DNA of 64,000 nucleotides, taken from positions 3,051,001 to 3,115,000 of the forward strand of contig NZ_CP035503.1 of NCBI RefSeq assembly GCF_006970865.1. The letters are read 5' to 3'. Positions 41,579 to 58,185 of the stretch are shown piece after piece. Position 1 is the first letter of the stretch; every line of letters begins with the position of its first letter. Made by a program: the position numbers and the translations under genes. The stretch comes from Rhodoferax sediminis. Lineage in GTDB: Bacteria > Pseudomonadota > Gammaproteobacteria > Burkholderiales > Burkholderiaceae_C. The notes under the pieces are model-generated. The model had not been told where the DNA came from, did not search any database, and saw only the letters and a program-made list of their open reading frames with translations.

Positions 41579-42612
41579 TGAGCACCACTGCACCACTGCT
41601 TCAGGTCGAAGACCTGCGCGTGGAATTCAAGACGCGTCGGGGCAAGGCCCTCGTGCTTAACGGCGTCGACTTTCAGATCCGCGGCGGCGAAACATTGTGC
41701 GTTGTCGGCGAATCGGGCTGCGGCAAAAGCATGACGGCGCTCGCATTGCTGCGCCTGATCCCGTCGCCACCCGGGCGAATCAGCGGCGGGCGCGTGCTTT
41801 TTCAGGGTGAGGATCTGGTGCAAGCGGACGAAGCTCGCATGCATAAAGTTCGCGGCAACCGGATTTCGATGATTTTCCAGGAGCCCATGACGTCGCTGAA
41901 CCCGGTGTTCAAAGTCGGCGATCAGATTGGGGAGTCCTTGCGATTGCACGCGGGGCTCGACGCCGCCGCGGCGCGCGCACGTACGATCGAGATGCTGCAG
42001 CAGGTCGGCATCCCTGCGCCCGAGCGGCGGGTCGACGAGTATCCGCACCAGCTGTCGGGTGGCATGCGCCAGCGCGTGATGATCGCGATGGCGTTGGCCT
42101 GCCGGCCCGATATCCTGATCGCTGACGAGCCGACCACGGCGCTCGACGTCACGGTGCAGGCTCAGATCTTCGACCTGCTGCGCGACCTGCAACGCGAAAA
42201 AGGCACGGCCATCCTGCTGATCACACATGACATGGGCGCTGTTGCCGAAATGGCCGATCGGGTGATGGTGATGTACGCGGGCCGTGTGATCGAACAGGGG
42301 ACCACGGAGCAGGTGCTGTCGCACCCGGGTCATCCCTATACCCAGGGCCTGATCGATTGCCTGCCCGAGCTCGGCAGCAGCCTCCAGCACGAGCGTGCCG
42401 AACTCGCCGAAATTAGGGGCGTCGTGCCCTCCATCTGGGAGCTGGGCAGCGGCTGCGCGTTTCGCGAGCGCTGCCCCCATGCCATGGCACGCTGCGCAGA
42501 ACAGGTGCCCCCGATGTTTGCGACCGGCGAGCACGGCGCGCTCGCAACGGGCGATGGCACCCACCGTGCGGCCTGCTGGCTGCATGCGCAAGACCAGATG
42601 GTGGCCGCATGA
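41578..42612 (+). CDS. peptide-type ABC transporter ATPase (DppD-like)
   Basis: A 344-residue ABC ATPase. Walker A is GESGCGKSM, signature LSGGMRQR, Walker [12 protein letters not shown], and the C-terminal oligopeptide extension has the [15 protein letters not shown] cysteine motif that holds an iron-sulfur cluster in some relatives. The ATG shares one base with the upstream stop. It is one of two ATPases of the importer. Confidence 0.93.
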
Positions 42613-43679
42613 GGACGATGGCAAGCCCTATTGAACAAGTAGCGCCTACTGCTTTGGCCTCGTCGAATACGCTCCTGTCAGTGCGCGACCTGCACGTGCA
42701 CTTTCCGCGCGCCAAATCGGGATGGTTTCAGCCGCCCGAGGTGGTCAAGGCCGTCGATGGCGTCTCCTTCGATGTCACGCGCGGCACGACGCTGGCGATC
42801 GTCGGCGAATCGGGCTCCGGCAAGACCACCACAGCGCTCGCGGTGATGCGCCTGTCACCGGTCACGTCCGGCCACATCCAGCTTGGCGACACCGACCTCG
42901 GCGCGCTTGAAGGCGAAGCGCTGCGCCAGGCGCGCACGCGGCTGCAGATCATTTTCCAGGACCCATTCTCGTCGCTGAACCCGCGCGAGCGCGCCGGCGC
43001 CGCAGTGCGCGCCCCACTTGACCTGATGCAAGTAGGCACGCCGGCACAGCGCACCGAGCGAGTCGCTGAACTATTCAAAGCGGTTGGTCTGCGGCCTGAG
43101 CAGCAGCACCTGTTTCCACACCAGTTCTCGGGTGGACAGCGCCAGCGCATCAACATCGCAAGGGCGTTGGCCACCAATCCCGAACTGGTCGTCTGCGATG
43201 AGCCCGTGTCCGCGCTGGACATCGCAATCCGCGCCCAAATCCTGAACTTGCTGGCAAGGCTGCAGCGCGAGCTCGGTTTGACCTACCTTTTCATCTCTCA
43301 TGACATGGCGGTGGTTGAGCACATCTGCGACGACATCGCAGTCATGTACCTGGGCCAGATCGTCGAGCGCGGGCCGCGCAAGGCCTTCTTCGCGAACCCA
43401 CTGCACCCGTACAGCGTGGCGCTGATGTCCGCGGTGCCCACGGTCCATGGCGGGCGCAAGCACGCCGCCCAGAGAATCAAGCTCAGCGGCGACCCGCCGA
43501 GCCCGATCAACCCCCCAGCTGGCTGCCGCTTCGCCGGCCGTTGTCCGATGGCTGAGCCGGCCTGCGTGGCCGAACTGCCCCCGCTACGTGAAGTGGTACC
43601 GGGCCACTGGGTGCGCTGTCGGCGTGTCGACATCGTCGACGGACTGCCGCGAGCGCCACTTCAGATGCCGACAGCCTGA
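42609..43679 (+). CDS. peptide-type ABC transporter ATPase (DppF-like)
   Basis: A 356-residue second ATPase. It has Walker A GESGSGKTT, signature FSGGQRQR, Walker B VVCDEPVSALD and the C-terminal GCRFAGRCPMAEPAC motif. It overlaps the DppD-like gene by 4 bp. With the four genes upstream it completes a full Dpp-type importer. Confidence 0.93.
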   Translation: MRTMASPIEQVAPTALASSNTLLSVRDLHVHFPRAKSGWFQPPEVVKAVDGVSFDVTRGTTLAIVGESGSGKTTTALAVMRLSPVTSGHIQLGDTDLGALEGEALRQARTRLQIIFQDPFSSLNPRERAGAAVRAPLDLMQVGTPAQRTERVAELFKAVGLRPEQQHLFPHQFSGGQRQRINIARALATNPELVVCDEPVSALDIAIRAQILNLLARLQRELGLTYLFISHDMAVVEHICDDIAVMYLGQIVERGPRKAFFANPLHPYSVALMSAVPTVHGGRKHAAQRIKLSGDPPSPINPPAGCRFAGRCPMAEPACVAELPPLREVVPGHWVRCRRVDIVDGLPRAPLQMPTA

Positions 43680-43703
43680 TTACTAGTTTTCCCCGACACC
43701 ATC

Positions 43704-45362
43704 ATGACCCACACGACTGTTTATTCGGCCCGCAAGATCATCACCATGAACCCAATGCAGCCCGAGGCTACGCACGTGGCCGTGCGCGACGGGCGCATCC
43801 TCGCGGTCGGTGACCTCGAACGCATGCAGGCCTGGGGCGCGTACACGCTCGACGAACGCTTCGCCGACAAGGTACTGATGCCCGGACTTGTCGAAGGCCA
43901 TTCACATCTAATGGCCGGAGGTCTTTGGCTATTTCCTTTTGTCGGCTTTCATGCCCGCACCGCACCGGATGGCAAGGTCTGGTCCGGCTGCCATAACTTC
44001 GACGAGGTCGTCGCGAGACTCATCGAACTCGAGGCGCAGATCGACGACCCGGCCAAGCCGCTGCTCGCATGGGGGTTCGATCCAATCTTCTTCGGCGCAG
44101 AGCGTATGACGGTGCATCACCTCGATCGCGTTTCGGCAACGCGTCCGGTCGTGATTCTGCACGCGAGTCAGCACCTGATGAACGTGAACTCCGCGGCAAT
44201 GGCCGCCGTTGGCATCACGCGCGAAACCGAGGTGGAAGGTATCGCACGGTTCGACAACGGTGAACCCACTGGCGAACTACAGGAGTTTGCCGCGATGTTC
44301 CCGATCGCGCGCCTGACTGGCAACATTTTCCGGATCGCCGGCACCACTGAACAAGGCTTGAGATTGTTCGGCCAGGTCGCGCAGCTCGCCGGCGTGACAA
44401 CCGCGACCGACCTGGTCAACGATCTGTCAGACAACAACGTAGAGGTGCTGCAAAAAGTCACTGCAGAAGCCGATTTCCCGGTACGGCTGGTGCCTGCCTA
44501 CATCGGGCTCGACGGTTCGACGTCGCGCGAAGCGGGCGCTGCACGCGTGCGCAGTCGCGTCGCCACGAATACCGACAAGCTGCACTTTGGCCTGGTCAAA
44601 ATCGTCACCGACGGCTCGATTCAGGGTTTTACCGCACGCGTGCGCTGGCCTGGCTATTTCAATGGTCACGACAACGGCATCTGGATCCAGCCACCGGCTG
44701 AACTGAAAGCGACGATCGCGCACTTCCATGCTGCCGGCTTCCAGTTGCATATCCACACCAATGGCGACGAGGCCACCGAGCTCGCGATTGACGGCATCGA
44801 GGAGGCTCTGGCAACACATCCGCGCGCCGACCACCGCCACACGCTGCAGCATTGCCAGATGGCCGACGCCGCGCAGTTCCGTCGCATGGCGCGCCTGGGC
44901 ATTTGCGCTAATCTGTTCGCCAACCATATCTACTACTGGGGAGATGCACACCACGCGCTGACGATGGGTCCGGATCGTGCCGAGCGCATGGATGCATGCG
45001 CCACCGCGCTGGAACACGGCGTGCCGCTGGCGATCCACTCCGACGCGCCGATCACGCCACTCGGGCCGCTCTTCACGGCGTGGTGCGCGGTCAACCGGCT
45101 CACATCATCAAGTCGTGTCCTCGGAGCGAGCGAGCGCATCAGCGTGGCGGACGCGTTGCAGGCAATCACACTCGGCGCCGCGTTCACGCTCGGGTTGGAC
45201 GATCGCATCGGTTCGATCGAAGTACGCAAATTCGCCGACTTCTGCGTGCTCGATGAAGACCCGCTGGCCGTGGTTCCCGAGGCACTCAAGGATCTGCGCA
45301 TTGCCGGTACGGTACTTGGCGGCCGTGTGCTGGAATTGCCGGGCAGTACGCCCGGAAAATGA
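43704..45362 (+). CDS. YtcJ-like amidohydrolase (Amidohydro_3)
   Basis: A 552-residue metal-dependent hydrolase. The HxH metal pair is in LVEGHSHLMAGG; later ligands lie in QLHIHTNGDEA, DHRHTLQHCQ and IHSDAPITPLGPL. The family cleaves amide or imide bonds, for instance in N-substituted formamides. It directly follows the Dpp-type importer (24 bp) and is coupled to a CobW GTPase. It probably hydrolyses the imported solute in the cytosol. A taurine amide is a guess from context. Confidence 0.85.
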   Translation: MTHTTVYSARKIITMNPMQPEATHVAVRDGRILAVGDLERMQAWGAYTLDERFADKVLMPGLVEGHSHLMAGGLWLFPFVGFHARTAPDGKVWSGCHNFDEVVARLIELEAQIDDPAKPLLAWGFDPIFFGAERMTVHHLDRVSATRPVVILHASQHLMNVNSAAMAAVGITRETEVEGIARFDNGEPTGELQEFAAMFPIARLTGNIFRIAGTTEQGLRLFGQVAQLAGVTTATDLVNDLSDNNVEVLQKVTAEADFPVRLVPAYIGLDGSTSREAGAARVRSRVATNTDKLHFGLVKIVTDGSIQGFTARVRWPGYFNGHDNGIWIQPPAELKATIAHFHAAGFQLHIHTNGDEATELAIDGIEEALATHPRADHRHTLQHCQMADAAQFRRMARLGICANLFANHIYYWGDAHHALTMGPDRAERMDACATALEHGVPLAIHSDAPITPLGPLFTAWCAVNRLTSSSRVLGASERISVADALQAITLGAAFTLGLDDRIGSIEVRKFADFCVLDEDPLAVVPEALKDLRIAGTVLGGRVLELPGSTPGK

Positions 45363-46363
45363 TGACAGCCGTGCCGCCAGCGGCCCGACCGCGATTGCCG
45401 CTGACCGTCGTCGGCGGCTTTCTCGGCGCCGGCAAGACGACACTGCTGAACCGGCTGCTGTGCCAGTCGCAAGGTCGCCGCCTGGCGGTGCTGGTCAACG
45501 ATTTCGGCGCGCTCAACATCGACGCCGAGTTGGTAGCTTCGAGTGCCGGCGACACTTTCGCACTGACCAATGGTTGCGTCTGCTGTTCGATCGGCGACGA
45601 CCTGACGGCGGCGCTGATCGCCGTGATCGAGTCGCCGATGCCGTTCGACGCGGTCGTGATCGAAGCCAGCGGCGTCTCCGACCCATGGCGGATCGCGCAA
45701 GTGGCACTAGTCGACCCCGGGCTCAGCCTGGACGGCGTGATCGTGCTGGTGGATGCGAGCGCCGCGCTGGCGCAGTCGCGCGCCCCCTTGCTGGCCGACA
45801 CGCTGGAGCGTCAGCTGAAGGCGGCCGACCTGATCGTCGTCAATCACTGCGACCGCGCGGCGGATGACGAGCGCGCCCGCGTGCGTGACTGGATCGCCTC
45901 GGTCGCCGGCGCCACGCCGCAGTTCGAGACCACCCAGGCGCAGGTGCCGCTGCCGATGCTCAGCGGCCTGGCGCTGCCCGACATGCAGCTGGCGCCGGCA
46001 TCTGAGCCAGCGCACCGTGATCCGCACGGGCACGCCGATGGTGCGCACGAACACGAGCATGATGACCCGGCCCATGGCGCGTTGTTCGACACCTGGTCGT
46101 GCCGCCCCGCGCGGGTGTTCTCGAGCACGGCGCTGCGCGCCTGGCTGACCGAACCGCCGCCCGGCATCCTGCGGCTGAAAGGCGTGCTGCGCACCGGGAC
46201 GCAGGACAGCGACAGCACATGGTCGGAGCTGCAGTTCGCCGGCCGCCACGGCACGCTGCGCACGGTCCCCGCTCCCGCAGCGGGCCCGGCGCTGGTGGCG
46301 ATTGGCTTGCGCGGGCGGCTGCCGATGGCGGCGCTGTCGGCACTGTTCGACGCGCCCGGCTGA
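45359..46363 (+). CDS. CobW/COG0523-family GTPase, putative metallochaperone
   Basis: A 334-residue G3E GTPase. Walker A is GGFLGAGKTT, the metal-binding CxCC is in TNGCVCCSI, and a His/Asp-rich loop (HRDPHGHADGAHEHEHDD) lies at about residues 218-236. The base-recognition motif reads NHCD rather than NKxD. Relatives deliver zinc or cobalt to client enzymes. Its start overlaps the amidohydrolase stop (ATGA), so that metalloenzyme is the likely client. Confidence 0.87.
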   Translation: MMTAVPPAARPRLPLTVVGGFLGAGKTTLLNRLLCQSQGRRLAVLVNDFGALNIDAELVASSAGDTFALTNGCVCCSIGDDLTAALIAVIESPMPFDAVVIEASGVSDPWRIAQVALVDPGLSLDGVIVLVDASAALAQSRAPLLADTLERQLKAADLIVVNHCDRAADDERARVRDWIASVAGATPQFETTQAQVPLPMLSGLALPDMQLAPASEPAHRDPHGHADGAHEHEHDDPAHGALFDTWSCRPARVFSSTALRAWLTEPPPGILRLKGVLRTGTQDSDSTWSELQFAGRHGTLRTVPAPAAGPALVAIGLRGRLPMAALSALFDAPG

Positions 46364-46394: not shown

Positions 46395-47162
46395 TCACTT
46401 CATAACCAGCCCACCATCGACAAACAGGGTTTGCCCAGTCATGAAGCGGCTCCAATCCGATGCCAGAAACAAGACAGGACCGGCCACATCCTCGGGCGTG
46501 GCAATCCGGCGCAAAGGCGTCTGGGCCGTGATCATGTCTTTGACCTCCTCCTTAGTCTGACGGCTCGCTGCCGTGGGATAGACCAGTCCGGGCGCCACAC
46601 TGTTGACGCGAATTCCCAAGGGGCCAAGCTCGGCCGCCAGGTTGCGGCCGAACCCAATCAGTGCAGATTTGGCAGTCGTGTAATCGTGATAGGGCACGGA
46701 GGGGCGTTCAACCAGATCGCTCACCATGTTGATGATGCTCCCCTGGCCGCGTTTTCTGAAATGGGGAAGGACGGCTTGGCAGACGTTGTAGGTCGAGCGC
46801 AGCGCGCCATCCAGCTGGCGTTGATAGTCGGCCCATGCCAGTTCCCAAAACATGGTCCGCTGATCCGGATCAAAGCTGTAGGCCGCGAAAGCATTGTTGA
46901 CCAGCACATCAATTTTCCCCGTCTCGACGAGCACCTGCTCCACCATGCTGCGCACCGCAGGCTCGGACGTGACGTCGGCCTGAATGGCCCAGGCATCGCC
47001 GCCCATCTGTTTGCAAGCATCGACCACGGTCGTGGCCGCGGCCGCATCTTGCAGATAATTGACAACAACCGTGGCGCCCTCCTGGGCAAAAGCCCGCGCA
47101 ATCGCAGCGCCAATACCCCGGCCGGCGCCCGTCACAAGAATGGTTTTGCCCTTGAATTCCAT
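46395..47162 (-). CDS. SDR oxidoreductase of the TPP-riboswitch operon
   Basis: A 255-residue classical SDR (FabG-like). The cofactor loop is VTGAGRGIGAAIARA, NNAFAAY replaces the common NNAG, the catalytic serine lies near NMVSDL, and Tyr-x3-Lys is YTTAKSAL. It is the last gene of the operon headed by the TPP riboswitch, 14 bp after the binding protein. In the model proposed here it would reduce the aldehyde released by the LuxC-like enzyme to an alcohol, or act on a related carbonyl. It converges on cobW. Confidence 0.85.
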   Translation of the reverse strand: MEFKGKTILVTGAGRGIGAAIARAFAQEGATVVVNYLQDAAAATTVVDACKQMGGDAWAIQADVTSEPAVRSMVEQVLVETGKIDVLVNNAFAAYSFDPDQRTMFWELAWADYQRQLDGALRSTYNVCQAVLPHFRKRGQGSIINMVSDLVERPSVPYHDYTTAKSALIGFGRNLAAELGPLGIRVNSVAPGLVYPTAASRQTKEEVKDMITAQTPLRRIATPEDVAGPVLFLASDWSRFMTGQTLFVDGGLVMK

Positions 47163-47176
47163 GGCGCCGGTCGTCC

Positions 47177-48175
47177 CTATTTCTGCGGCAACAGGTCTTG
47201 CCGAACGACGTCGGACACCTTGATGTCGCGTTGAATCAAACCCAGTTTCTGATAGGTGTTGGCAGCTTTCTGCAAAACTGCCATGTCAAAGGAGCCCAGG
47301 CCGCGGAGGTTTGTCGCGGCTGACACGCTCGACAGGTTGCGCAACTGGATCACTTCGCGGTTGATCGCCTGGTTCTTGCCATCGATCGCACGTTTGACGG
47401 CCAGCGCAGCTGCCTCGTCGGGGTTCTTGATCATCCAGGCAGCACTGTCGCGGTACGCTGCAAGAAAACGTTTTAAGAGATCTTTCTTGTTTTGGTACGT
47501 GTCTTCAGTGACCACAAAGATGTCGCTGGGAATATTCAGATAGTTCCGGACTTCGATGACATTGACGTCGCCCAACCCCTTTTGTTTGCCTACGAGCAAA
47601 CCGGTATCTGTCGCAGCAGTCGCATCCACTTGACCTTGAATCAGGGGGGCAAAATTCAGCAGACCTGTGACCACGATCGTGACATCTGTCTCGGTCAAAC
47701 CAGCTTGATGCAGCAGCACCAGCAGGTTTTGGCGAGTTCCGCTTGACAGGCTGTAGACACCAATTTTCTTGCCCTTCAGGTCTGCGGGTTTGGTGATGTT
47801 GCGGCTCTTGAGCGAGACCACATTGAAGACGTTTTGTGGATAGATGTCGTAAATCGCACGCAATTTTTCACCCTTGTCCAGGGCGGCAAAAAATGAACCC
47901 GGATCGGTAAAGGCCACCGTTGCCTGCCCCGTCAACATGTTTCGAATGGCATCGCCTCCTCCCGCACCCGGTACATAGGTCAGATCAAGCCCCCTGGCCT
48001 TGAAGAACCCCTTGTCTTGCTCAACCAGCAGATTGGTGATTTCTGTAATGGGCTGACTCCAGCCGGCGACGGTGATCTTGTCCACTTCATCGGCATGGCT
48101 GACGCTGGTCGCGCCCAGAGAAACCAGCGTCGTAACGACAAAAGCAAGCATGAATCGTGTGACGGACCGTTTCAT
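47177..48175 (-). CDS. NMT1/ThiY-like ABC substrate-binding protein
   Basis: A 332-residue periplasmic protein with a signal peptide (cleavage near SHA-DEV). The mature part reads ITVAGWSQPITEITNLLVEQDKGFFKARGLDLTYVPGAGGGDAIRNMLTG in layout, the NMT1/THI5 fold of SsuA, TauA and ThiY. Being under a TPP riboswitch, it more likely binds a thiamine precursor (pyrimidine or thiazole) than a sulfonate. An AAGGAA site precedes the ATG at 48175. Composition looks less GC-rich than neighbouring genes. Confidence 0.85.
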   Translation of the reverse strand: MKRSVTRFMLAFVVTTLVSLGATSVSHADEVDKITVAGWSQPITEITNLLVEQDKGFFKARGLDLTYVPGAGGGDAIRNMLTGQATVAFTDPGSFFAALDKGEKLRAIYDIYPQNVFNVVSLKSRNITKPADLKGKKIGVYSLSSGTRQNLLVLLHQAGLTETDVTIVVTGLLNFAPLIQGQVDATAATDTGLLVGKQKGLGDVNVIEVRNYLNIPSDIFVVTEDTYQNKKDLLKRFLAAYRDSAAWMIKNPDEAAALAVKRAIDGKNQAINREVIQLRNLSSVSAATNLRGLGSFDMAVLQKAANTYQKLGLIQRDIKVSDVVRQDLLPQK

Positions 48176-48179
48176 TTCT

Positions 48180-48959
48180 TTATTCCTTTTCTCTATATTT
48201 AAGATGCGGCGACAGCAATAGCCGTTCAATCGCAATCGCCATCTGATAAACCAATAGTCCCAACACAGTAATGATCAAGAGCACGGCGAACATGAGGGGG
48301 GTATCCATCATGCCCTGAGAAGCAATGATCAACGCCCCCAAACCTTTGCTGCCACCAATGAATTCCCCGACGACCGCGCCCACGAGGGCCAGCACGACGG
48401 CCACCCGGAATCCCGCCATGATGCCCGGCAATCCCGAGGGGATCTTCAAACGCAGCAGGGTTTGCAGGCGTGTCGCTCCCAACATCCGGAATAGCTCGTG
48501 TTTTTGAGGATCAACCTGTTGCAAACTGGTTAGCGTGTTTTCCATCAGCGGGAAAAAGCAGATCAGCGCCGTGATGACCACGGTCGATTTCATGCCAAAT
48601 CCAAACCAGACGATAAAGAGTGGCGCCAATGCCAATTTGGGGACCACCTGGCTGACGATCACATAGGGAAATAGAAGAGACCGCAAAAATTCGGACTCAC
48701 CCATCACAACCCCACACAGGAACCCGACCACACAACCAATCGTCAGGCCCAGAACCAGTTCGGTGCCCGTCTGCACCAGATGCGGCCAGTAATAACCCGT
48801 CTTGACGCCGCTCCAAAGCGCATGCACCACCGCAGACGGGGCCGGCAGCACCAGCGCCGACATGTTCGACAGGCGAGAAAACAACTCCCATCCCACTATC
48901 AGGCTGATGAAAAGCGCCCAGGCACAAATACGGCTCGTGTTGGCGCGGCTCATCTTCAT
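48180..48959 (-). CDS. ABC permease (ThiX/SsuC-like)
   Basis: A 259-residue permease with six helices. The EAA loop is FRMLGATRLQTLLRLKIPSGLPGIMAG. The ATG at 48959 overlaps the upstream ATPase stop; a second ATG at 48953 is possible. It forms the channel of the putative thiamine-precursor importer. Confidence 0.87.
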   Translation of the reverse strand: MKMSRANTSRICAWALFISLIVGWELFSRLSNMSALVLPAPSAVVHALWSGVKTGYYWPHLVQTGTELVLGLTIGCVVGFLCGVVMGESEFLRSLLFPYVIVSQVVPKLALAPLFIVWFGFGMKSTVVITALICFFPLMENTLTSLQQVDPQKHELFRMLGATRLQTLLRLKIPSGLPGIMAGFRVAVVLALVGAVVGEFIGGSKGLGALIIASQGMMDTPLMFAVLLIITVLGLLVYQMAIAIERLLLSPHLKYREKE

Positions 48960-49702
48960 GCAGTGACGTCGTCCATGGCCTGGCGCACCTGAGAACACAG
49001 GGCGTTGAACTGGGCGCCATAACGCACATCTCGTCTGCGAGGCCGGGGCAAATCGACTGGCAGGTCTTCGCTGATCTGCCCTTGCGCCATCACGGCAACC
49101 CGATCCGCCAGATAAACGGCTTCGCCGATGTCGTGCGTCACAAAGAACACTGTCGTTTGACCCAGGTGGCAGATTTTCAGGAAGTCATCCTGCAGCTCCT
49201 CCCGGGTGATCGCATCAAGGGCAGCGAAGGGCTCATCCAGCAACAAGAGCGCCGGCTCCAGGAGAAGGGCTCGTGCAATAGCGACCCGGCTCTGCTGCCC
49301 CCCCGACAATTCGGTTGGATAGCGTGCGCAGCAGTCGGACAGACCCACGAGTTCAAGCAACTTCTCGGCTCTCACCCGGTCCTGGATTAGGGGATTGCGC
49401 TGAAGCGCAATCGGCAAAAGAACATTGTCAATTACCTTTTTCCACTCGAGCAAGGTCGGCGACTGGAAAACAAAACCCAACTGGCTGCCTGGCTTCAAAA
49501 GGCTTTTCCCATCCAGCGTGATCAACCCGGAATCCGGCAACAAGAGACCAGCGGCCAGCTTCAGCAGCGTGGTTTTTCCACAGCCACTGCGACCCACCAG
49601 ACAATGGAACTCTCCTCGCTCGATGTTCCAGTCAACCTGATGGACAACTTTCATCTGTCCCCGGTAGGTATAGCTCACGTGGCGCATCTCCAGGAAGCTC
49701 AT
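48956..49702 (-). CDS. ABC ATP-binding protein (ThiZ/SsuB-like)
   Basis: A 248-residue ABC ATPase. Walker A is GRSGCGKTT, Q loop VFQSPTLLEWKKV, signature LSGGQQSR and Walker B LLLLDEPFAALD. The same short type serves ThiXYZ, SsuABC and TauABC importers; the operon riboswitch points to thiamine precursors. It lies between luxC-like and permease genes. Confidence 0.88.
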   Translation of the reverse strand: MSFLEMRHVSYTYRGQMKVVHQVDWNIERGEFHCLVGRSGCGKTTLLKLAAGLLLPDSGLITLDGKSLLKPGSQLGFVFQSPTLLEWKKVIDNVLLPIALQRNPLIQDRVRAEKLLELVGLSDCCARYPTELSGGQQSRVAIARALLLEPALLLLDEPFAALDAITREELQDDFLKICHLGQTTVFFVTHDIGEAVYLADRVAVMAQGQISEDLPVDLPRPRRRDVRYGAQFNALCSQVRQAMDDVTA

Positions 49703-49711
49703 ACCGGATTC

Positions 49712-51166
49712 CTAGTCAACATACGGTGCAAAGGTTTCCGAAGCGGCCTCTGCCGATGCCTCGACGTCGACTGTGTAGGTGAGGTCCAGCAAACCAGGGC
49801 GTCCGTCGTGGTGCCAGCCAGCCTCTGGAGCCGTCATTTGCCCCACCGCGCTGATGCGGGTAACGCCAACTCGTCCCAATAATTCTGCCAGTTCAAAAAG
49901 TTCACGTGGCGCAGCCGCCAAACCGACCGTTTGCAAAAATGGTCGGTGGCGTGCGATCAGGGGAATGACTTGCGCCAATTGGTCGACAGCCATCACCCTG
50001 ATCGTCCGGTTCAACCCACTCGGCGTCAGTTCCTGCACAGTGTCGTTGTAGACGACTGTCCAGGGTCCATCACCCACCACATCCGGCCCCGGTTGCGAGA
50101 GACTCTTAAGTTCTTCACGTTGACGCCAGTCGGCAACGCTTGCGGCTTCATCCAGACTCAGGGCGCGCCGCGGAAACTTGCGCTCAAAACACGAGAGTTC
50201 ATTGGCGAGATAGCGCGAAAACGCCTCAGGGGTTATTTTTCCTCCCCGCTCCACATAGAACACATGGGGCGAGTAACAGCCCTGCTGGTCGTACCGCATC
50301 ACGTCGTAGGCGGCCTGCTGTGCGGTCTTCGAGGCCTTGCTGGCATCCAGTGCTCTCCTTGAGATCATGCCCAGACTGAGTTTGTGGCCATAGGGTAAAA
50401 ACCGTGTGGTGATGGGTACCTGACGGCGGACCTGTTCCAGCGATGCGCTTCCGCCGTAAGCGAGCACCAGGTCGGCTTGCTGGAAGAAATGCTTTTCTCG
50501 CGCTTCGTCACCCCCCTTCCACCACACCACCGCAAAGCAATTGGCCAGCAGGGGGTCCAAGTCCACCAGCAGTTGTGCAAACCACCCAGCAAAAAGAGGC
50601 TCCGTACTCGCGACCTTGCCAATCGTGCCCGACTTCACCAGCAATCCGGAGATCAGGCTCCACAATGACAGGCCGGGCACATTGCCCGCCCACACGTGGA
50701 CCGCCAGATCGACACCAAAGGCCTTGGAGAAGCCGCCTTTCGGGCGCGGCTGAAACTCATCGAGCAATTGCGGATTACCGAAATCCTCGACTACAAAGCG
50801 CTGCAACTGAGGTCGGCGGAATGTTTTCAAATAACCGGTCAAGCCAAGGCGAACCATTTCAGGGTCGTACCCCGTCACAAGGGGCAACAAGGTATCGGCC
50901 TTTTGGCGATAGGGGTCCTTTGGATCCAGCAGCCGCGCTATCGCCTGATCCACAATCGATACGATCTGGGCCACCGTCAGCGACTTCAGGTACGAACGGC
51001 TCGCTTGTTTGACCCTTGCTATCAACGCGATGGCTTGGTCATCGCCTAGAACGGGCACGGCAACTTCAAGGGGCTGGCCCCTGCTGCCGAAGGTGAGCGT
51101 CTGCCATTGCACCTCCTCTGCCCTGAGGCCCGGAAGGTAGCCGGCAATCTCGCGGATCGGCATCAT
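49712..51166 (-). CDS. LuxC-like acyl reductase
   Basis: A 484-residue LuxC-family protein. In luminous bacteria LuxC reduces an acyl group, handed over by LuxE, to an aldehyde with NADPH. The catalytic cysteine sits in RYDQQGCYSPHVF (C297), and the aldehyde-dehydrogenase-like VHVWAGNVPGLSLWS and YGGSASLEQVR segments are present. Its ATG overlaps the LuxE-like stop (ATGA). No luciferase (luxAB) genes are in the window. With a TPP riboswitch upstream, the likely substrate is a carboxylated thiamine precursor, which is inference. Confidence 0.88.
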   Translation of the reverse strand: MMPIREIAGYLPGLRAEEVQWQTLTFGSRGQPLEVAVPVLGDDQAIALIARVKQASRSYLKSLTVAQIVSIVDQAIARLLDPKDPYRQKADTLLPLVTGYDPEMVRLGLTGYLKTFRRPQLQRFVVEDFGNPQLLDEFQPRPKGGFSKAFGVDLAVHVWAGNVPGLSLWSLISGLLVKSGTIGKVASTEPLFAGWFAQLLVDLDPLLANCFAVVWWKGGDEAREKHFFQQADLVLAYGGSASLEQVRRQVPITTRFLPYGHKLSLGMISRRALDASKASKTAQQAAYDVMRYDQQGCYSPHVFYVERGGKITPEAFSRYLANELSCFERKFPRRALSLDEAASVADWRQREELKSLSQPGPDVVGDGPWTVVYNDTVQELTPSGLNRTIRVMAVDQLAQVIPLIARHRPFLQTVGLAAAPRELFELAELLGRVGVTRISAVGQMTAPEAGWHHDGRPGLLDLTYTVDVEASAEAASETFAPYVD

Positions 51167-52242
51167 CCTAAAGCCGCTTGCAGAAATTCTTCTACGGCAA
51201 GTGAGCATCCCTTGGCCGCGCTGCCTTGCGCGCGCCCCAGCAACAGAAAGCCCGAGTTCACTGCGACACCCACGTCCTCGGTCAGAATGGTGGTGACCGA
51301 ATTGAAGTTGGCCAGATCGCAATGGGCCAGAATCCCGCGCTCACCACGCGGCACCTCTTTTCCACTCAAGGGATCCACCACCCTGGATCTGATCCAGTGA
51401 GGGCCAGTCTTGACAGCTGGAAGAGCCGCATTGCCCGAGTCGTAAAACTGCGTGCTGAGTTCGGTCATGCCATACATATTGATGCATTGGCGTCTTTCGA
51501 TGCCCAGCACAGAGGAAAGCTGCGCATAGAAATCCTCCATGGAAAGTTCACGCGACAGTCCCTTGAATCCACCCGTATCCAATACCTTGCTGCCCTGCGG
51601 CAAAACAAAGGATTTTCCCAATTTGTGCAGTTCATCCAAAAGGTGTACGAAGCTATAACTCGCCCCCAACAGGGCATAGGGCTCCGCGACACGCTCAGCT
51701 CGCTCCAATTCGGCGATGAGGCGCACGATGTCCAGCCCCTCTCGCGCCAAAAAATAGTGACTCTCCTGCGCGCCGAACTCCTTGACTGCGAGCGCCAGAT
51801 AGTGCGCCAGAGACGAATTCGGCAGCAGCGTTTCCGTTGGGAAGAGAACACCCATGCGGATCCTTTCGCGGCCTTGCATGAACCTTTGCCTGAAATTTTT
51901 CGTCATCGAGTAATCGTAGACCGACAGGGTGGGATGGTGATGTTTTCCCTTGACATCGCCTTGCGTCGTGCCGCTGGTCATGAAGACGCGCTCTGCATCA
52001 CTCGCAGGAATACAGCTCAAGGTCAGCTCCTTGAATCCGTTGATGGGAACTGCAGGGATATCCCGCCAGCTTTTTACAGTGCGTACGGTCTTGCCTCGTT
52101 GCTGGCAGAAACGCTGAAAAGGGCGATTATGTTGATACTGATAAGCAAACAACTTCAATGCTTGCTGATCAAACTCATCCTCTGGCGAATGATCTGTGGC
52201 CATATAAGCCAGCAGGCCGTCGATCACGGCACCTTGGGTCAT
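51163..52242 (-). CDS. LuxE-like acyl-protein synthetase
   Basis: A 359-residue LuxE-family enzyme, which activates a carboxylic acid as acyl-AMP and transfers it to its own cysteine for LuxC. The adenylate motif is FMTSGTTQGDVKG near residue 88, the MYGMTELSTQFYDS segment recalls the A5 motif of adenylating enzymes, and the acceptor cysteine lies near the C-terminus in KGCSLAVEE (C346), as in LuxE. It is the first full-length gene after the TPP riboswitch. A 30-codon reading frame overlaps its start. Confidence 0.88.
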   Translation of the reverse strand: MTQGAVIDGLLAYMATDHSPEDEFDQQALKLFAYQYQHNRPFQRFCQQRGKTVRTVKSWRDIPAVPINGFKELTLSCIPASDAERVFMTSGTTQGDVKGKHHHPTLSVYDYSMTKNFRQRFMQGRERIRMGVLFPTETLLPNSSLAHYLALAVKEFGAQESHYFLAREGLDIVRLIAELERAERVAEPYALLGASYSFVHLLDELHKLGKSFVLPQGSKVLDTGGFKGLSRELSMEDFYAQLSSVLGIERRQCINMYGMTELSTQFYDSGNAALPAVKTGPHWIRSRVVDPLSGKEVPRGERGILAHCDLANFNSVTTILTEDVGVAVNSGFLLLGRAQGSAAKGCSLAVEEFLQAALG

Positions 52243-52331
52243 TTTGAGCCTGCCTGCGAAATAAGCAGTTGCCTTTTAGCCGGAGTATGCCCAGACTGGA
52301 ACAAGAAGTTGTCGAACGCATTCACTGTCAT
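52239..52331 (-). CDS. possible 30-residue leader peptide upstream of luxE-like gene
   Basis: A short frame starting at 52331 codes MTVNAFDNFLFQSGHTPAKR plus ten more residues and ends in TGA overlapping the luxE-like ATG (ATGA), the same coupling used between genes of this operon. A GAAAGAG stretch precedes its ATG. It lies between the riboswitch and luxE. No homologue is recognised; it may be a coupled leader or chance. Confidence 0.4.
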   Translation of the reverse strand: MTVNAFDNFLFQSGHTPAKRQLLISQAGSK

Positions 52332-52369
52332 CACTCTTTCGGTTGCCTGATTGCAAATTTACTCCGAAA

Positions 52370-52395
52370 GATGCGGCGGACGCTTATGGCGCATC
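52370..52395 (-). promoter_or_regulatory. hairpin just downstream of TPP riboswitch (possible expression platform)
   Basis: In the transcript sense GATGCG and CGCATC pair around 14 bases, followed by TTT. It begins 7 bases after the aptamer. A second dyad, CTTTCGG...CCGAAAG, follows and overlaps its end. The mechanism (termination or sequestering) cannot be decided by eye. Confidence 0.45.
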
Positions 52396-52401
52396 CCAAG
52401 G

Positions 52402-52508
52402 CAGCTCTTCTTACGTCGGCATGATCCGATTCAAGTTCGCGGGTTTGGTTCTGACCATCTCAGCCACCCTTGTCGCCACCGACAAGACTGCACCCCGGAG
52501 CAGTTGGA
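52402..52508 (-). promoter_or_regulatory. TPP riboswitch (THI element)
   Basis: Read on the minus strand the region has every conserved block of the TPP aptamer in order: CTCCGGGGTGC, a variable hairpin (CTTGTCGGTGGCGACAAG), GGCTGAGA, ACCC, GAACTTGAATCGGATCATGCC and GACGTAAGAAGAGC. GCTC and GAGC at the ends close helix P1. It lies 160 bp upstream of the luxE-like gene and 45 bp past the soeC stop. It implies that thiamine pyrophosphate represses the luxE-luxC-ABC-SDR operon. This and the leader frame account for the 52243-52553 gap. Confidence 0.92.
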
Positions 52509-52553
52509 ATTCTAGCGGAATCGCGAATCAACACTGCCGATTCCAATCACGCC

Positions 52554-53476
52554 TCAGGAAACAACCTGGTAGTACAGGTTCTGTGGGTGCTTGGCTTGCG
52601 CGAAGAAAAACCAGCGCTCGGCCAGCAGTCCAGGCGCCTGCACCAGCACCGCGAGCGCCCAAGCCAGTGTGCCCCCCCAGCCAGGCCCCACAGCGCCAAC
52701 GCAGCCGGCAGCACGAAGCCCAGCATGATGAAGAGCAGTTTCACTTGCTTCAGCGCCAACAACGTACGGCCGTGAAAGAACTCTCGCGTGTTGAATGAAC
52801 CGGCGGACATGCCCATCGATTTCTGCACGATGTTCCCGGACTTGATGCCGGTGGCCGACTGCAGGGTTGACTTGTGTTTGAGCGTGGCGTTGTGACGCAG
52901 CGACAGCATGCGCGTGGCCCAAGCCGCCAGCGTCACGGCCAGCGCGCACGGGCCCGCCAGCTGTACCAGGCGCACTTCGCCCGCGAGCGAGCCGAGTGCG
53001 CACGTCAGCACGAGGCCAGACGACAAGCCGATCAGCACAAAGTTCACCAGAGTCAGAGGCTGCGCCCACTCCTCGATGAAGCGCAGGCAGGCGTATATCA
53101 TTGCGGTGCAGTACCACAGCAGCGCGGCGAAGAGGATAGCGATCAAGGGTAGTAGGGGCGTGTCGATTCCGCTGCGCAGCGCCAGCCACCACAACACATT
53201 GATGCCGATAAAGGCCGGCAGCACAATTACCTCGCGCGATAGCCACGAGGTGCGCCACATCATCGCCGCGCGCCAAGCGCGCTCAGGTCGACCCAAGTGG
53301 CCGAAGGAGGCGCCCAGGCCGATCAGCAGCATCACCACCGCGACGATCAGCGCGAGACTCATGAAACCTTGCGGCAGTGGCAGGCCCGCGAGCAGCGCAA
53401 GTGCGAGCGTCACGACCAGCCCCTGCGCGGCGCCGGCGATCGTCGTGAAAACCACTACCGAGAACGCCGGCTTCAT
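52554..53476 (-). CDS. soeC: sulfite dehydrogenase membrane subunit SoeC (frameshifted)
   Basis: A DmsC-type membrane anchor of about 307 residues with eight hydrophobic helices that should pass electrons from SoeAB to quinone. The frame from 53476 runs well to a G7 tract (plus-strand C run at 52672-52678), after which it reads unrelated residues to a stop at 52547. The conserved C-terminus (LLAERWFFFAQAKHPQNLYY) continues in another frame to the stop at 52554. One extra G would restore it. It is either a sequencing error or a real frameshift or phase switch. The ATG overlaps the soeB stop. Confidence 0.8.
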
Positions 53477-54246
53477 GGCTCGCCCTTCGCGCGGGTGTCG
53501 CCCGCAACCTCGGTAATGCGTCGCGGCAGGTACTGGTTCGCCGGGTTCGTCTCCCATTCCGGCATCAGCGAATAGCCACCGCGCTCGCGGATTGCAATCG
53601 ACACGTCGGAGTTCGGATCCTTCACATCGCCGAACAGACGCGCGCCGGTCGGGCAGGCCATCACGCAGGCGGGCCTGCGGTCTTCCTTGGGCAGGCGCTC
53701 GTCGTAGATGCGGTCGACGCACAAGGTGCACTTGGTCATCACCTGGCGCTCTTCGTCGATCTCGCGCGCACCATACGGACAAGCCCAGGCGCAATATTTG
53801 CAGCCGATGCATTTGTCATAGTCGACCAGTACGATGCCGTCTTCCTTGCGCTTGTAGCTCGCACCGGTGGGGCATACCGGCACACAGGGCGGGTCTTCGC
53901 AGTGCAGGCAGCTCTTCGGGAAGTGGATCGTCTCGGTGCCGGGGAAGCTGCCGGCCTCGTAGGTTTGCACCCGGTTAAAGAAGGTGCCGGTCGGGTCGGC
54001 GCCGTAGGCGTGCTCATCGACCAATGGGCCGGCCGATCCCGAGGTGTTCCATTGCTTGCACGAGGTCACGCAGGCGTGGCAGCCCACGCAGACGTTCAGG
54101 TCGATCACCAGTGCGAGCTGCTTGGCCAGCGTCTCGCCCGGCTCGGCACGTACTCTGGTCGCAGCCTTTGGTGGTGCCGTAACGACGCGTGCCGGGGCTT
54201 CGGCGACGGCATTGCGCTTGATCAAATCTTGAAGCCAGTGGATCAT
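53473..54246 (-). CDS. soeB: sulfite dehydrogenase iron-sulfur subunit
   Basis: A 257-residue ferredoxin-like subunit with four cysteine groups for [4Fe-4S] clusters: CVGCHACVTSC, CLHCEDPPCVPVC, CIGCKYCAWAC and CTLC...CVMAC. It is of the DmsB/PsrB type and lacks a signal peptide, so it faces the cytosol. It carries electrons from SoeA to SoeC. It overlaps both neighbours by 4 bp (ATGA). Confidence 0.9.
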   Translation of the reverse strand: MIHWLQDLIKRNAVAEAPARVVTAPPKAATRVRAEPGETLAKQLALVIDLNVCVGCHACVTSCKQWNTSGSAGPLVDEHAYGADPTGTFFNRVQTYEAGSFPGTETIHFPKSCLHCEDPPCVPVCPTGASYKRKEDGIVLVDYDKCIGCKYCAWACPYGAREIDEERQVMTKCTLCVDRIYDERLPKEDRRPACVMACPTGARLFGDVKDPNSDVSIAIRERGGYSLMPEWETNPANQYLPRRITEVAGDTRAKGEP

Positions 54247-57197
54247 GATTTTTTCACTCCCTTCAGCCGAGCCTTGAATTCGCCCTGCCCCGCAAAATAT
54301 GCCTGGAACACGCGCTTCACAACACTGGTCGTGCCGGGTAACACGGGCATCGCATCGAACTGCGGCAACGTCGTGCGGGCCTCTGCCTCGGCGGGATAGA
54401 CCCGCACCCGCACGTCGTACCACGCCGCCTGCCCGGTGATCGGATCGGAGTTCGACACGCGCCCATGCGCGGCCGGCAACTCGTCGGAGATCAGGTGGTT
54501 CAGCAGGAAGCCGCGCTGAGATTCGTTCGCGTCAGGGCCCAGGTTCCACGCGCCCGCAGCCTTGCCAATCGCGTTCCAGGTCCACACGGTGCCGGGCTCG
54601 ACCGCTTCGCTGTAACGGGCCATGCACCGAACCCTGCCCCACTGCGACTCGACGTAGATCCAGGCGCCGTCCTCGATACCCGCAGCAGCGGCCATACCCG
54701 GATTCACGAACAGGTAGTTCTCGGCGTGGATCTGGCGCAACCAGGCGTTTTGCGAATCCCAGGAGTGGTACATCGCCATCGGCCGCTGGGTAATCGCCGC
54801 AAGCGGATATTTCTTCATCTCGGTCACGTCGTGCTCAAGCGGCTCGTACCAGAATGGCAGTGGGTCGAAATGACGGGCGATCCGTTCGCGCAGATGCTCG
54901 GGCGGCTGGCGTCCGCGTGTCTTGCCTTGTGCGGCGAGACGAAATTTCTGCATGACGTCCGAATACAGCTGGATAACGATCGGCTCCTTGAACTTGCGCA
55001 TCCCGTTGTCCTGCGCCCATTGCAGGTAGGGGCCATTGCAGTTGCGCATGTACTGCAGCGATTCATCCAGCGTGTAATGGAACACGCAATTGTTCTTCGC
55101 ATACTGTTCCCACTGGTTCGGGTTCGGCTCGCCAACGAGCGCCTTGTCTCCGTTCTTGCCGCGCCAGCCGATGAGGAAGCCCGTACCGGAATCCGGGGCG
55201 GTCTGAAAGTTGACGATGAAATCGGGATAGTCCTTGAACTTGCGCGTGCCGTCGGCGGCGGTAAAAGCCGGGAATTTCAGGCGGCCGGCCAGTTCAATCA
55301 GCACCTCCTGAAACGGCTTGCATTCGCCGGTACGCGGCACAACCGGCACGCGCACCGAATCGACGGGACCATCGAATTCGGAAATCGGCCGATCCAGCAC
55401 GGACATCGCGTCGTGCCGTTCGAGATAGGTCGTGTCGGGCAGGATTAGATCCGCGAATGCCGTCATTTCCGACTGGAATGCGTCGCACACGACGATGAAC
55501 GGGATTTTGTACTCACCCTTATCAGGACCGTTATCGTGCTTGTCGTTCAGCATCTGGCGAACTTCCACGGTGTTCATCGAGGAGTTCCACGCCATGTTTG
55601 CCATGAAGATCATCAACGTGTCGATCGGGTAAGGGTCGCCGCGCCATGCATTGGTGATGACGCTGTGCATCAACCCGTGTACCGCGAGCGGGTATTCCCA
55701 TGAAAACGCCTTGTCGATACGCAGTGGGCCGCCATCGGCGTCAATGAACAAGTCTTCCGGCGCCGCCGGCCAGCCTAGCGGCCCCACCGGCAGCGGAGTG
55801 TTCGGTTGAACCTGGTCCGGACTGTTCGGCGGTTTGGCCGAGGGCGGCACCGCACGCGGGTAGGGCGCCTTATGGCGAAAGCCGCCGGGCCGGTCGATGG
55901 TGCCGAGCAGCGACATCAGAACCGCCAGTGCGCGAATCGTCTGGAAACCATTCGAATGCGCCGCAAGGCCGCGCATCGCGTGAAACGCCACCGGGTTGCC
56001 GGTAACGGTGTCATGGGTCTCGCCCCAGGCGTCGGTCCAGCGTATGGGCAATTCGATCTTGTGGTCCCGGGCGGCAACGCCCATTTCGAGCGCAAGGCGC
56101 CGAATGGTGGCAGCGGGAATGCCGGTAATACCTTCCGCCCATTCCGGCGTGCAGCTTTGAACCTGTTCCTGCAGCAACTGAAATGCGGGCTTGACGGGTG
56201 TCCCACCGGGTAGCGTGAATTCGCCCGTCAGGCATGGGTCGGCGCCGCGTGTGTGGGTCTTGACCGGTCGCCCGGTATGACGATCCCACCACATCTTGTT
56301 TTGCGGGTAGAGCACATTGCCCACCGGACTGGCATCGTCCTGCACGAACAGGCCGAAAACGTCACTGGCCGCATCCGCGTTGACCAGTTCCCCTGCATTT
56401 GAATAGCGTGCGATGAACGGCTGATCGTAGAGACCTTTGGCGATCAGTTCGTGAATCAGTGCCATAAAGAGGGCACCATCGGTGCCTGGACGAATCGGCA
56501 CCCACTCGTCGGCAATCGCCGAGTAACCCGTGCGCACCGGGTTGATCGACACAAACCGGCCGCCCGCACGCTTGAACTTCGACAGGGCAATCTTGAGTGG
56601 GTTCGAGTGGTGATCCTCGGCGGTGCCGATCATCACGAACAACTTGGCGCTGTCGAGATCGGGGCCGCCGAATTCCCAGAATGACCCGCCAATCGTATAG
56701 ATCATGCCGGCCGCCATATTGGACGAACAGAAGCCGCCATGCGCCGCGTAGTTCGGCGTGCCGAACTGCTTGGCGAAGAGGCCTGTCAGCGCCTGCATCT
56801 GGTCGCGTCCGGTGAAAAGCGCGAAGCGCTTGGGGTCGGTGGCCCGAATGTGCGCGAGACGTTTTTCCAGGATGTCAAATGCCTCATCCCATGAGATGGG
56901 CTCGAACGCCGCCGTCCCCCGCTCGGCATCCGGCTTGCGCCGCAGCGGCTGCGTCAGTCGCGCGGGCGAGTATTGCTTCATGATGCCCGACGACCCTTTC
57001 GCGCAGATCACGCCCTGGTTCAACGGGTGGTTCGGGTTGCCGTCGATATAGCGCACCTCGCCATCGCGCAAATGCACGCGAATGCCGCAGCGGCAGGCGC
57101 ACATGTAGCAGGTGGTGGTCTTGATCTCGGTGTTTGCCGTCGGCGTCGGCGATGCGAGCGGGTTGTGTAGCGGTTCGCTAGAGAGAAACTTGAACAC
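54243..57197 (-). CDS. soeA: sulfite dehydrogenase molybdopterin subunit
   Basis: A 984-residue molybdopterin oxidoreductase of the DMSO reductase family. An N-terminal [4Fe-4S] site (CYMCACRCG...CAKG) comes first, then a likely Mo-ligand cysteine in GGFCSSNMAAG, and GTAEDHHSNPL. There is no Tat signal, which separates SoeA from periplasmic relatives and fits cytoplasmic sulfite oxidation as shown in Allochromatium. The GTG at 57197 has an AAGGAG site. Being in one run with xsc and pta, it should oxidise the sulfite released by Xsc. Confidence 0.88.
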   Translation of the reverse strand: MFKFLSSEPLHNPLASPTPTANTEIKTTTCYMCACRCGIRVHLRDGEVRYIDGNPNHPLNQGVICAKGSSGIMKQYSPARLTQPLRRKPDAERGTAAFEPISWDEAFDILEKRLAHIRATDPKRFALFTGRDQMQALTGLFAKQFGTPNYAAHGGFCSSNMAAGMIYTIGGSFWEFGGPDLDSAKLFVMIGTAEDHHSNPLKIALSKFKRAGGRFVSINPVRTGYSAIADEWVPIRPGTDGALFMALIHELIAKGLYDQPFIARYSNAGELVNADAASDVFGLFVQDDASPVGNVLYPQNKMWWDRHTGRPVKTHTRGADPCLTGEFTLPGGTPVKPAFQLLQEQVQSCTPEWAEGITGIPAATIRRLALEMGVAARDHKIELPIRWTDAWGETHDTVTGNPVAFHAMRGLAAHSNGFQTIRALAVLMSLLGTIDRPGGFRHKAPYPRAVPPSAKPPNSPDQVQPNTPLPVGPLGWPAAPEDLFIDADGGPLRIDKAFSWEYPLAVHGLMHSVITNAWRGDPYPIDTLMIFMANMAWNSSMNTVEVRQMLNDKHDNGPDKGEYKIPFIVVCDAFQSEMTAFADLILPDTTYLERHDAMSVLDRPISEFDGPVDSVRVPVVPRTGECKPFQEVLIELAGRLKFPAFTAADGTRKFKDYPDFIVNFQTAPDSGTGFLIGWRGKNGDKALVGEPNPNQWEQYAKNNCVFHYTLDESLQYMRNCNGPYLQWAQDNGMRKFKEPIVIQLYSDVMQKFRLAAQGKTRGRQPPEHLRERIARHFDPLPFWYEPLEHDVTEMKKYPLAAITQRPMAMYHSWDSQNAWLRQIHAENYLFVNPGMAAAAGIEDGAWIYVESQWGRVRCMARYSEAVEPGTVWTWNAIGKAAGAWNLGPDANESQRGFLLNHLISDELPAAHGRVSNSDPITGQAAWYDVRVRVYPAEAEARTTLPQFDAMPVLPGTTSVVKRVFQAYFAGQGEFKARLKGVKKS

Positions 57198-57198
57198 A

Positions 57199-58185
57199 TC
57201 AGCTCCTTGGCGGCTCGAGTGGGGTATCCAACGGGATTGACGCGAGCACCGCCAACGCCACCGATGCAATCCGCGAGTGCAGCGAATCGGCACGCGAAGT
57301 CAACACTATCGGCACTTTGGCCCCGAGCACCAAGCCAGCGCAGTCACCACCGCCGATGTAATTGAAGCTTTTGTACAGCATATTGCCGGCATTCAGATCT
57401 GGCATCAGCAACAGATCCGCATCGCCGCTGACCTGGGAGTTGATTTTCTTGATGCGCGCCGCATCGGCGGATATGGCATTGTCGAAACCAAACGGGCCTT
57501 CCACGATCGCACCCGGCCACGCACCCTGCCGCGCCATCTCGACCAGCGCCCGGGCGTCCACGGTGGCCGGAATCGCCGGGTTCACGGTTTCGACCGCCGC
57601 GACGATGGCGACTTTAGGATGCGCGACGCCGAGTCGTTGCAACAGCGCGATTGCGTTGCCGATGATGTCGCGCTTGGTGTGCAGGTTGGGGGCGATATTG
57701 ACAACGCAGTCGGCGAGCGCGAGCAGCTTTGGATAGCGTGGCAAGTCAAACACGAACGCATGGCTGATGCGCGTATTGCCGCGCAGTCCGGAATGCTTGT
57801 TCACGACCGCTGACATCAACTCGTCGGTATGCAACGAGCCCTTCATCAGTGCGCCAATCACACCCTCACGCGCCAGCATGGTCGCGCGCAACGCCGCTTC
57901 GGGACCAGCGTCAGCCGTATCAATGAGTTCGAATTGCGCCACGTCCACGCCAGCGGCGCTGGCCGCGCGGGCGATTGGCCCGGCGGGGCCAATCAGCACC
58001 GGCCGGGCAATGCCGGCTGCAGCAATCTGCGCGGCCGCACCCAGCGCAAGTGCGTCGCACGGGTATACCAAACCCACAGCCGGTGCCTGAGTGCCAGCCC
58101 GCTGCCGTGCGCGCTCAACCAACTCGTGCAATCGGGGGTGTGTAGCGGCAGCGCTGCGCAGATCAGGGGATGCATGTTCATTCAT
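57199..58185 (-). CDS. pta: phosphate acetyltransferase
   Basis: A 328-residue short-type Pta/Ptb-family protein that converts acetyl phosphate and CoA to acetyl-CoA. Marks include GALMKGSLHTDELM, HAFVFDLP, DLNAGNMLYKSFNYIGGGDCAGLVLGAKVPIVLTSRAD near the C-terminus. The short form typically accompanies xsc. The ATG at 58185 gives a start NEHASPD; an earlier GTG at 58197 is possible. It ends just before the soeA start. Confidence 0.9.
   Translation of the reverse strand: MNEHASPDLRSAAATHPRLHELVERARQRAGTQAPAVGLVYPCDALALGAAAQIAAAGIARPVLIGPAGPIARAASAAGVDVAQFELIDTADAGPEAALRATMLAREGVIGALMKGSLHTDELMSAVVNKHSGLRGNTRISHAFVFDLPRYPKLLALADCVVNIAPNLHTKRDIIGNAIALLQRLGVAHPKVAIVAAVETVNPAIPATVDARALVEMARQGAWPGAIVEGPFGFDNAISADAARIKKINSQVSGDADLLLMPDLNAGNMLYKSFNYIGGGDCAGLVLGAKVPIVLTSRADSLHSRIASVALAVLASIPLDTPLEPPRS

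Follow-up and report, generated by a model that had tools for sequence, protein, structure and literature searches.

We analysed a 64,000-nt stretch of the Rhodoferax sediminis genome (contig NZ_CP035503.1, positions 3,051,001 to 3,115,000), referred to below as the window and numbered from its first base. On its minus strand lies a six-gene operon, preceded by an element of the thiamine pyrophosphate (TPP) riboswitch class, in which relatives of the acid-reducing enzymes LuxE and LuxC stand together with an ATP-binding cassette (ABC) importer and a short-chain dehydrogenase/reductase (SDR). We propose the operon as a candidate route for salvage of an oxidised thiamine pyrimidine. Its features, from the 5′ end of the presumed transcript, are:

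52391–52507, minus strand: TPP riboswitch aptamer (THI element), RF00059; found at this position in 74 of the 76 related loci that could be read
52243–52390, minus strand: leader between the aptamer and the luxE-like gene, with no clear expression platform
51163–52242, minus strand: LuxE-like adenylating acyl-protein synthetase, 359 amino acids; PF04443, 85.9 bits against a cut-off of 24.9
49712–51166, minus strand: LuxC-like acyl-protein/acyl-CoA reductase, 484 amino acids; PF05893, 304.3 bits
48956–49702, minus strand: ABC importer ATPase, 248 amino acids; PF00005
48180–48959, minus strand: ABC importer permease, 259 amino acids; PF00528
47177–48175, minus strand: periplasmic substrate-binding protein (SBP) of the NMT1/THI5 family, 332 amino acids; PF09084, 176.5 bits
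46395–47162, minus strand: SDR, 255 amino acids, likely the aldehyde reductase of the pathway; PF13561, 218.7 bits, and NF006393, 302.9 bits against a cut-off of 292; TGxxxGxG and Ser...YxxxK motifs

The genes are tightly packed, with two 4-base overlaps and remaining gaps of 9, 4 and 14 bases. An initial annotation, made from the letters of the sequence, had read the gene order as luxE-like, luxC-like, ATPase, permease, NMT1-type SBP and SDR, and Pfam and NCBIfam matches bear out each assignment. For the ATPase, the best NCBIfam models are of the nitrate/sulfonate/taurine type, all of them under their cut-offs among the matches listed. The annotation also stated that luxAB is absent. This holds for the six operon genes and the seven flanking genes, among which neither a luciferase nor LuxD was found; luxAB was not looked for elsewhere in the genome.

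The THI element had been placed at 52402–52508 on the minus strand, and a covariance-model search of that strand found it there: RF00059 matches 52391–52507 over the full model (positions 1–105), with 53.3 bits and an E value of 1e-9. This is 1.0 bit under the RF00059 gathering score of 54.3, so the element falls short of family membership by score alone, which explains why a default Rfam scan of the window gave no TPP match. Judged by the GCUGAGA core motif together with full-length coverage, it has the marks of a TPP riboswitch: the model is matched from 1 to 105 and CTGAGA is present. The host genome has two further TPP sites, before thiO/thiG-like and thiC genes, which score 59.4 and 54.7 bits, and 53.3 bits is therefore ordinary for Rhodoferax sediminis. 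On these grounds we regard the TPP element of the window as confirmed at the level of sequence. In the leader (52243–52390), a simple scan found no terminator-like site, and predicted folding was no better than that of shuffled sequences (z 0.48).

Related loci were collected by scanning one genome per species, which gave 220 LuxC relatives, and the best 80 of these (56–96% identity) were fetched. They were picked by similarity to the window LuxC, and the TPP link described here holds for that clade, not for LuxC at large. The Rfam model was run on 79 of the 80 genomes; matches were paired to loci by coordinates and CTGAGA was then checked in each, while the remaining locus, L077, was judged by sequence alone. 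In 74 of the 80 loci, luxE (or thiD-luxE) is directly preceded by a TPP element, the upstream region being readable in 76 and cut by a contig end in L070, L078, L086 and L088. Full-length Rfam matches account for 72 of the 74, with L021 adding a partial match at a contig edge (28.7 bits) and L077 the element recognised from its sequence. At 73 sites (the 72 loci plus the window), CTGAGA is present without exception and 51 exceed the gathering score. Carrier genomes hold 0 to 7 TPP matches each, yet 74 of 76 loci have one directly upstream, which is therefore more than chance. A family-wide search gave 40 carriers, and thirteen further loci taken from these, chosen for low similarity or a missing ThiC, all have an upstream TPP element (one of them, L145, is on the same contig as L090). 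In the genome with a distant LuxC (G056, 30% identity), the sole TPP match is on a different contig. A survey of luxC/luxE operons had been proposed as a check of the thiamine connection; it shows them linked to TPP elements with few exceptions within this LuxC clade, the part of the two families that was surveyed. Neither this survey nor the covariance-model search, two of the three tests set out beforehand as able to refute the proposal, did so. Taken together, these comparisons strongly support a link of the cassette to the TPP riboswitch class and to thiamine metabolism.

The gene set was compared across the same loci and, separately, across 60 genomes comprising the host and its relatives, 8 of which have a LuxC match at E ≤ 1e-10: the host itself, six close genomes (57–96% identity) and one outlier at 30% identity. 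The same six genes occur in order in five of the six close genomes; in the sixth, LuxE and LuxC lie on a contig of 3 kb. Of the 80 loci, 64 have the complete set of six in this order and 6 have LuxE-LuxC-SDR without the ABC genes (five from Pantoea or Enterobacter, plus L036); in the remaining 10, a contig end cuts the run or the match list is incomplete. The SDR is present in 71 of 80, the other nine being cut or incomplete contigs. In the Pantoea and Enterobacter loci L071, L077, L079, L082 and L087, a TPP element precedes LuxE-LuxC-SDR and the run has no ABC genes of the window type.

A second form of the operon occurs on plasmids. LuxC relatives are present in 27 plasmid records, and in the four examined the locus has a TPP element in every case. 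The Priestia plasmid carries the six-gene form behind a 49.0-bit element. Lactiplantibacillus plantarum, Levilactobacillus brevis and Niallia taxi (LuxC 40% identical) show the order permease-LuxE-LuxC-SDR. In L. plantarum, the permease belongs to the nucleobase:cation symporter type NCS2 (PF00860; NCS2_1 is over its cut-off, pbuX and ncs2 are under theirs), and that of Niallia is 59% identical to it. Before the NCS2-type operon, the TPP element scores 67.6 bits in both lactobacilli. On the Niallia taxi megaplasmid (L133), tandem TPP aptamers at 2540–2648 and 2727–2836 (85.0 and 72.9 bits) stand before the NCS2-LuxE-LuxC-SDR operon. L131 and L132 are small lactobacillus plasmids of food strains, 10 and 21 kb in size, in which the operon has an integrase and a toxin-antitoxin pair of the YafQ type in its vicinity.

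Because some loci are importer-free and others have exchanged the importer, we take LuxE-LuxC-SDR to be the constant core. As judged from gene content, the importer is exchangeable (NMT1/THI5-type ABC, NCS2 or none in the run), and the core and the riboswitch stay. By established LuxE/LuxC chemistry, the set would carry an acid through an acyl-enzyme to an aldehyde and on to the alcohol. The profiles of the LuxE set and of the LuxC set both match 7xc6, a solved LuxC-LuxE entry. In the LuxE-like protein, Cys346 is invariant in 33 of 33 aligned sequences and pairs with residue 364 of 7xc6 chain E (the Cys of KGCS), which we take to be the acylated Cys. In the LuxC-like protein, Cys297 is the aligned active-site Cys, and QGCYSP, invariant in 7 of 7, pairs with QACFS of 7xc6 chain A. 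Both catalytic Cys residues are also kept in the NCS2-type form. Among the SDRs, TGxxxGxG is found in 53 of 53 and Ser...YxxxK in 42 of 53. Conserved catalytic residues and family membership together indicate that the cassette likely performs acid reduction. Thr occupies the catalytic Ser position in 11 of the 53 SDRs, for example in L037, L041 and L047.

The acid itself could in principle lie outside thiamine biosynthesis: some other carboxylic acid, aromatic or fatty, might be reduced to meet a need that arises under TPP scarcity, with no route to a thiamine precursor. LuxE and LuxC relatives are fatty-acid enzymes; database names of members include long-chain fatty acid--CoA ligase, along with LuxE/PaaK family acyltransferase, acyl-CoA reductase and hypothetical; and the best Foldseek matches of the LuxE model are PaaK-type aromatic-acid (phenylacetate-CoA) ligases, the 7xc6 LuxE not being among the matches listed. 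We nonetheless think this unlikely, since the LuxE-like and LuxC-like proteins miss the fatty-acid equivalog cut-offs by far (70 vs 550 bits for NF052244 and 105.5 vs 750 bits for NF052251), the SBP is nearest to binders of the thiamine pyrimidine, and thiD, thiM, thiE, thiO or thiG occur in the same runs in some genomes. From the LuxE fold we draw no argument for an aromatic substrate, as PaaK-like folds may be typical of the LuxE family in general.

An NMT1/THI5-type SBP with an ATPase and a permease behind a TPP match is the ThiY-type arrangement, and the operon has it. The top Foldseek match of the SBP model is a thiamin-bound binding protein (4nmy); by VIA-align, the best match is 3ix1, which binds N-formyl-4-amino-5-aminomethyl-2-methylpyrimidine (FAMP), and the Thi5 hydroxymethylpyrimidine (HMP) synthase comes next among named functions. 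Thiamine acetic acid is known to arise by oxidation, and the 4nmy match would suit uptake of this whole oxidised vitamin and its reduction to thiamine. We hold that to be very unlikely: the partners ThiD and ThiE act before thiamine assembly, and NCS2 permeases are named for nucleobases. We give just as little credence to a pyrimidine other than HMP as the product, whether by reduction of a different 5-carboxypyrimidine or by amination of the aldehyde to an aminomethyl form for TenA. All of the evidence for a pyrimidine serves this version equally, and the structural match to FAMP-binding 3ix1 suits it, but no aminotransferase or TenA is found among the six operon genes, and an SDR is kept in every locus that is neither cut nor incomplete.

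Thiamine genes themselves adjoin the cassette in some genomes. ThiD lies between the TPP element and LuxE in nine operons (L046, L048, L050, L063, L065, L085, L090, L139 and L144), and the three tested (L046, L050 and L063) exceed the NCBIfam TIGR00097 cut-off; in L134, L135, L136, L142 and L143 it is convergent, directly after the SDR. In Metabacillus (L039), the order is TPP-LuxE-LuxC-ATPase-permease-SBP-SDR-ThiM-ThiD-ThiE. A ThiO-like gene follows the SDR in L050, L063 and L065 (the L050 protein scores 208 vs 251 for TIGR02352), with ThiG behind it on the same contig in L050 and L065, where the contig end cuts it in L065. In L144 and L145, the SDR is followed by a ThiE-like gene with 29% identity to the query. 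The proximity to thiD, thiM and thiE that had been anticipated is thus seen in some genomes and extends to thiO and thiG; in most other loci, no thiamine gene adjoins the cassette in these comparisons. The host genome has thiD-, thiG- and thiE-like genes.

From this evidence we put somewhat better than even chances on the proposal that the operon imports an oxidised thiamine pyrimidine, likely 4-amino-2-methylpyrimidine-5-carboxylate, and reduces it to HMP in two steps. At low TPP, the riboswitch would permit expression of the operon, as expected of its aptamer family. The NMT1/THI5-type ABC importer would take up the acid, a role that would fall to the NCS2 permease on the two lactobacillus plasmids and in Niallia. 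The carboxylate would be adenylated by LuxE, which would transfer it to its own conserved C-terminal Cys; the acyl group would pass to the conserved Cys of LuxC, which would use NADPH to reduce it to the aldehyde, and a second reduction, by the SDR, would give HMP. ThiD would then phosphorylate HMP to its pyrophosphate (HMP-PP), which ThiE joins to thiazole phosphate; these last two steps are established chemistry. The initial annotation had suggested import of an oxidised thiamine fragment and had left open whether it was thiazole or pyrimidine. The thiamine link is well supported, and the evidence favours the pyrimidine because ThiD occurs in the operon, ThiM has no match in 27 of 50 carriers, an NCS2 permease serves as alternative importer and the SBP is near FAMP-binding, thiamin-binding and HMP-synthase proteins.

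Several observations weigh against this proposal. ThiM adjoins the cassette twice, after the SDR in L039 and L052, which keeps alive a thiazole version of the pathway in which 4-methylthiazole-5-acetic acid would be reduced to hydroxyethylthiazole (HET) for phosphorylation by ThiM; HET, too, is a primary alcohol with an existing acid form. We consider that version decidedly unlikely. Free HET would be a dead end in the 27 of 50 carriers without a ThiM match, Rhodoferax sediminis included, and is therefore an unlikely product; ThiD is a more frequent partner than ThiM; L050 and L065 already hold the thiazole-branch ThiO/ThiG in the same run; and a nucleobase permease of the NCS2 type fits a pyrimidine better. 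No TPP element was found upstream of the cassette in L037 and L057. The distribution of ThiC also gives little help to the pyrimidine proposal. Among the 80 carrier genomes, 12 keep ThiG without ThiC and 0 show the reverse, 10 of the 12 being metagenome-assembled genomes (MAGs). Ramlibacter montanisoli has no ThiC match. Among 398 genomes of the family with a completeness of at least 95%, for which ThiC and carrier counts were drawn with the same settings and taken as the same genomes, 9 of the 40 carriers and 98 of the 358 non-carriers have no ThiC match (Fisher p 0.58). ThiC loss is thus common in the family and untied to the operon, and the 12:0 split, with ThiG counted in carriers only and not in the 358 non-carriers, may reflect this background and is weak support. 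Most carriers have both ThiC and ThiG, so that the operon would be a saving for them rather than a need.

A role for the operon as a replacement for ThiC, which would predict ThiC-poor carriers, is not borne out by the same counts. The 107 of 398 family genomes without a ThiC match suggest that HMP auxotrophy, or another source of HMP, is common. In one MAG (G077, C9:13751–14800), the ThiC match runs over three frames, as a broken gene or a sequencing error would produce.

The operon is flanked by genes of other apparent functions. Upstream, at 52547–57293 on the minus strand, a DmsC-like anchor, a 4Fe-4S subunit and a molybdopterin oxidoreductase likely form an operon of the dimethyl sulfoxide (DMSO) reductase type. 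Convergent to the six-gene operon, at 41578–46363 on the plus strand, lie genes for two ABC ATPases of the oligopeptide type, an amidohydrolase and a CobW-type protein.

Among described systems, ThiXYZ-YlmB-TenA comes closest; in it, as outlined in parts of PMC5627462, a TPP-regulated NMT1/Thi5-type ABC importer takes up a damaged pyrimidine from which HMP is regenerated. The operon shares with it a TPP-linked importer of this type, with an SBP whose model is closest to the FAMP-binding 3ix1. The chemistry appears to differ: where the relevant parts of PMC5627462 describe deacylation by YlmB followed by TenA, the operon's adenylating acyl-protein synthetase, acyl reductase and SDR suggest that a carboxylate is reduced. 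Neither the YlmB nor the TenA family is present among the six operon genes; no search was made for them elsewhere in the genome or in the other loci. The LuxCDE fatty-acid reductase is similar in its LuxE and LuxC homologues, whose Cys residues are kept relative to 7xc6; unlike it, the operon is without luciferase or LuxD, falls far under the equivalog cut-offs and has a TPP riboswitch, an importer and an SDR instead. Carboxylic acid reductases also drive the conversion of acid to aldehyde with ATP, but do so in one large protein with a phosphopantetheine carrier, whereas the operon encodes two separate proteins with Cys residues.

In its riboswitch class and its theme of biosynthesis and precursor transport, the operon resembles the TPP-riboswitch thiamine regulons covered in the main text of a 2013 survey (PMC3766115), where 'lux' occurs 0 times. 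Searched by title and the start of the abstract, the open-access literature yielded nothing joining LuxE/LuxC with TPP riboswitches or thiamine salvage, and the open-access papers that contain LuxE, LuxC and thiamin together treat other subjects, going by their titles. What would be new relative to known salvage is a TPP-linked rescue of a damaged thiamine pyrimidine by reduction rather than hydrolysis. To the broader statement, that at least two phyla share an undescribed B1 salvage through LuxE-LuxC from pyrimidine acid to HMP, with the acid an unrecognised B1 vitamer, we assign even chances.

If the proposal is correct, the labels 'long-chain fatty acid--CoA ligase' and 'acyl-CoA reductase' now borne by members would need correcting, and LuxE-LuxC would gain a role outside light production. 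A reductive route would be added to the known hydrolytic rescue of damaged thiamine, and B1 auxotrophs would have a new environmental vitamer that they could use.

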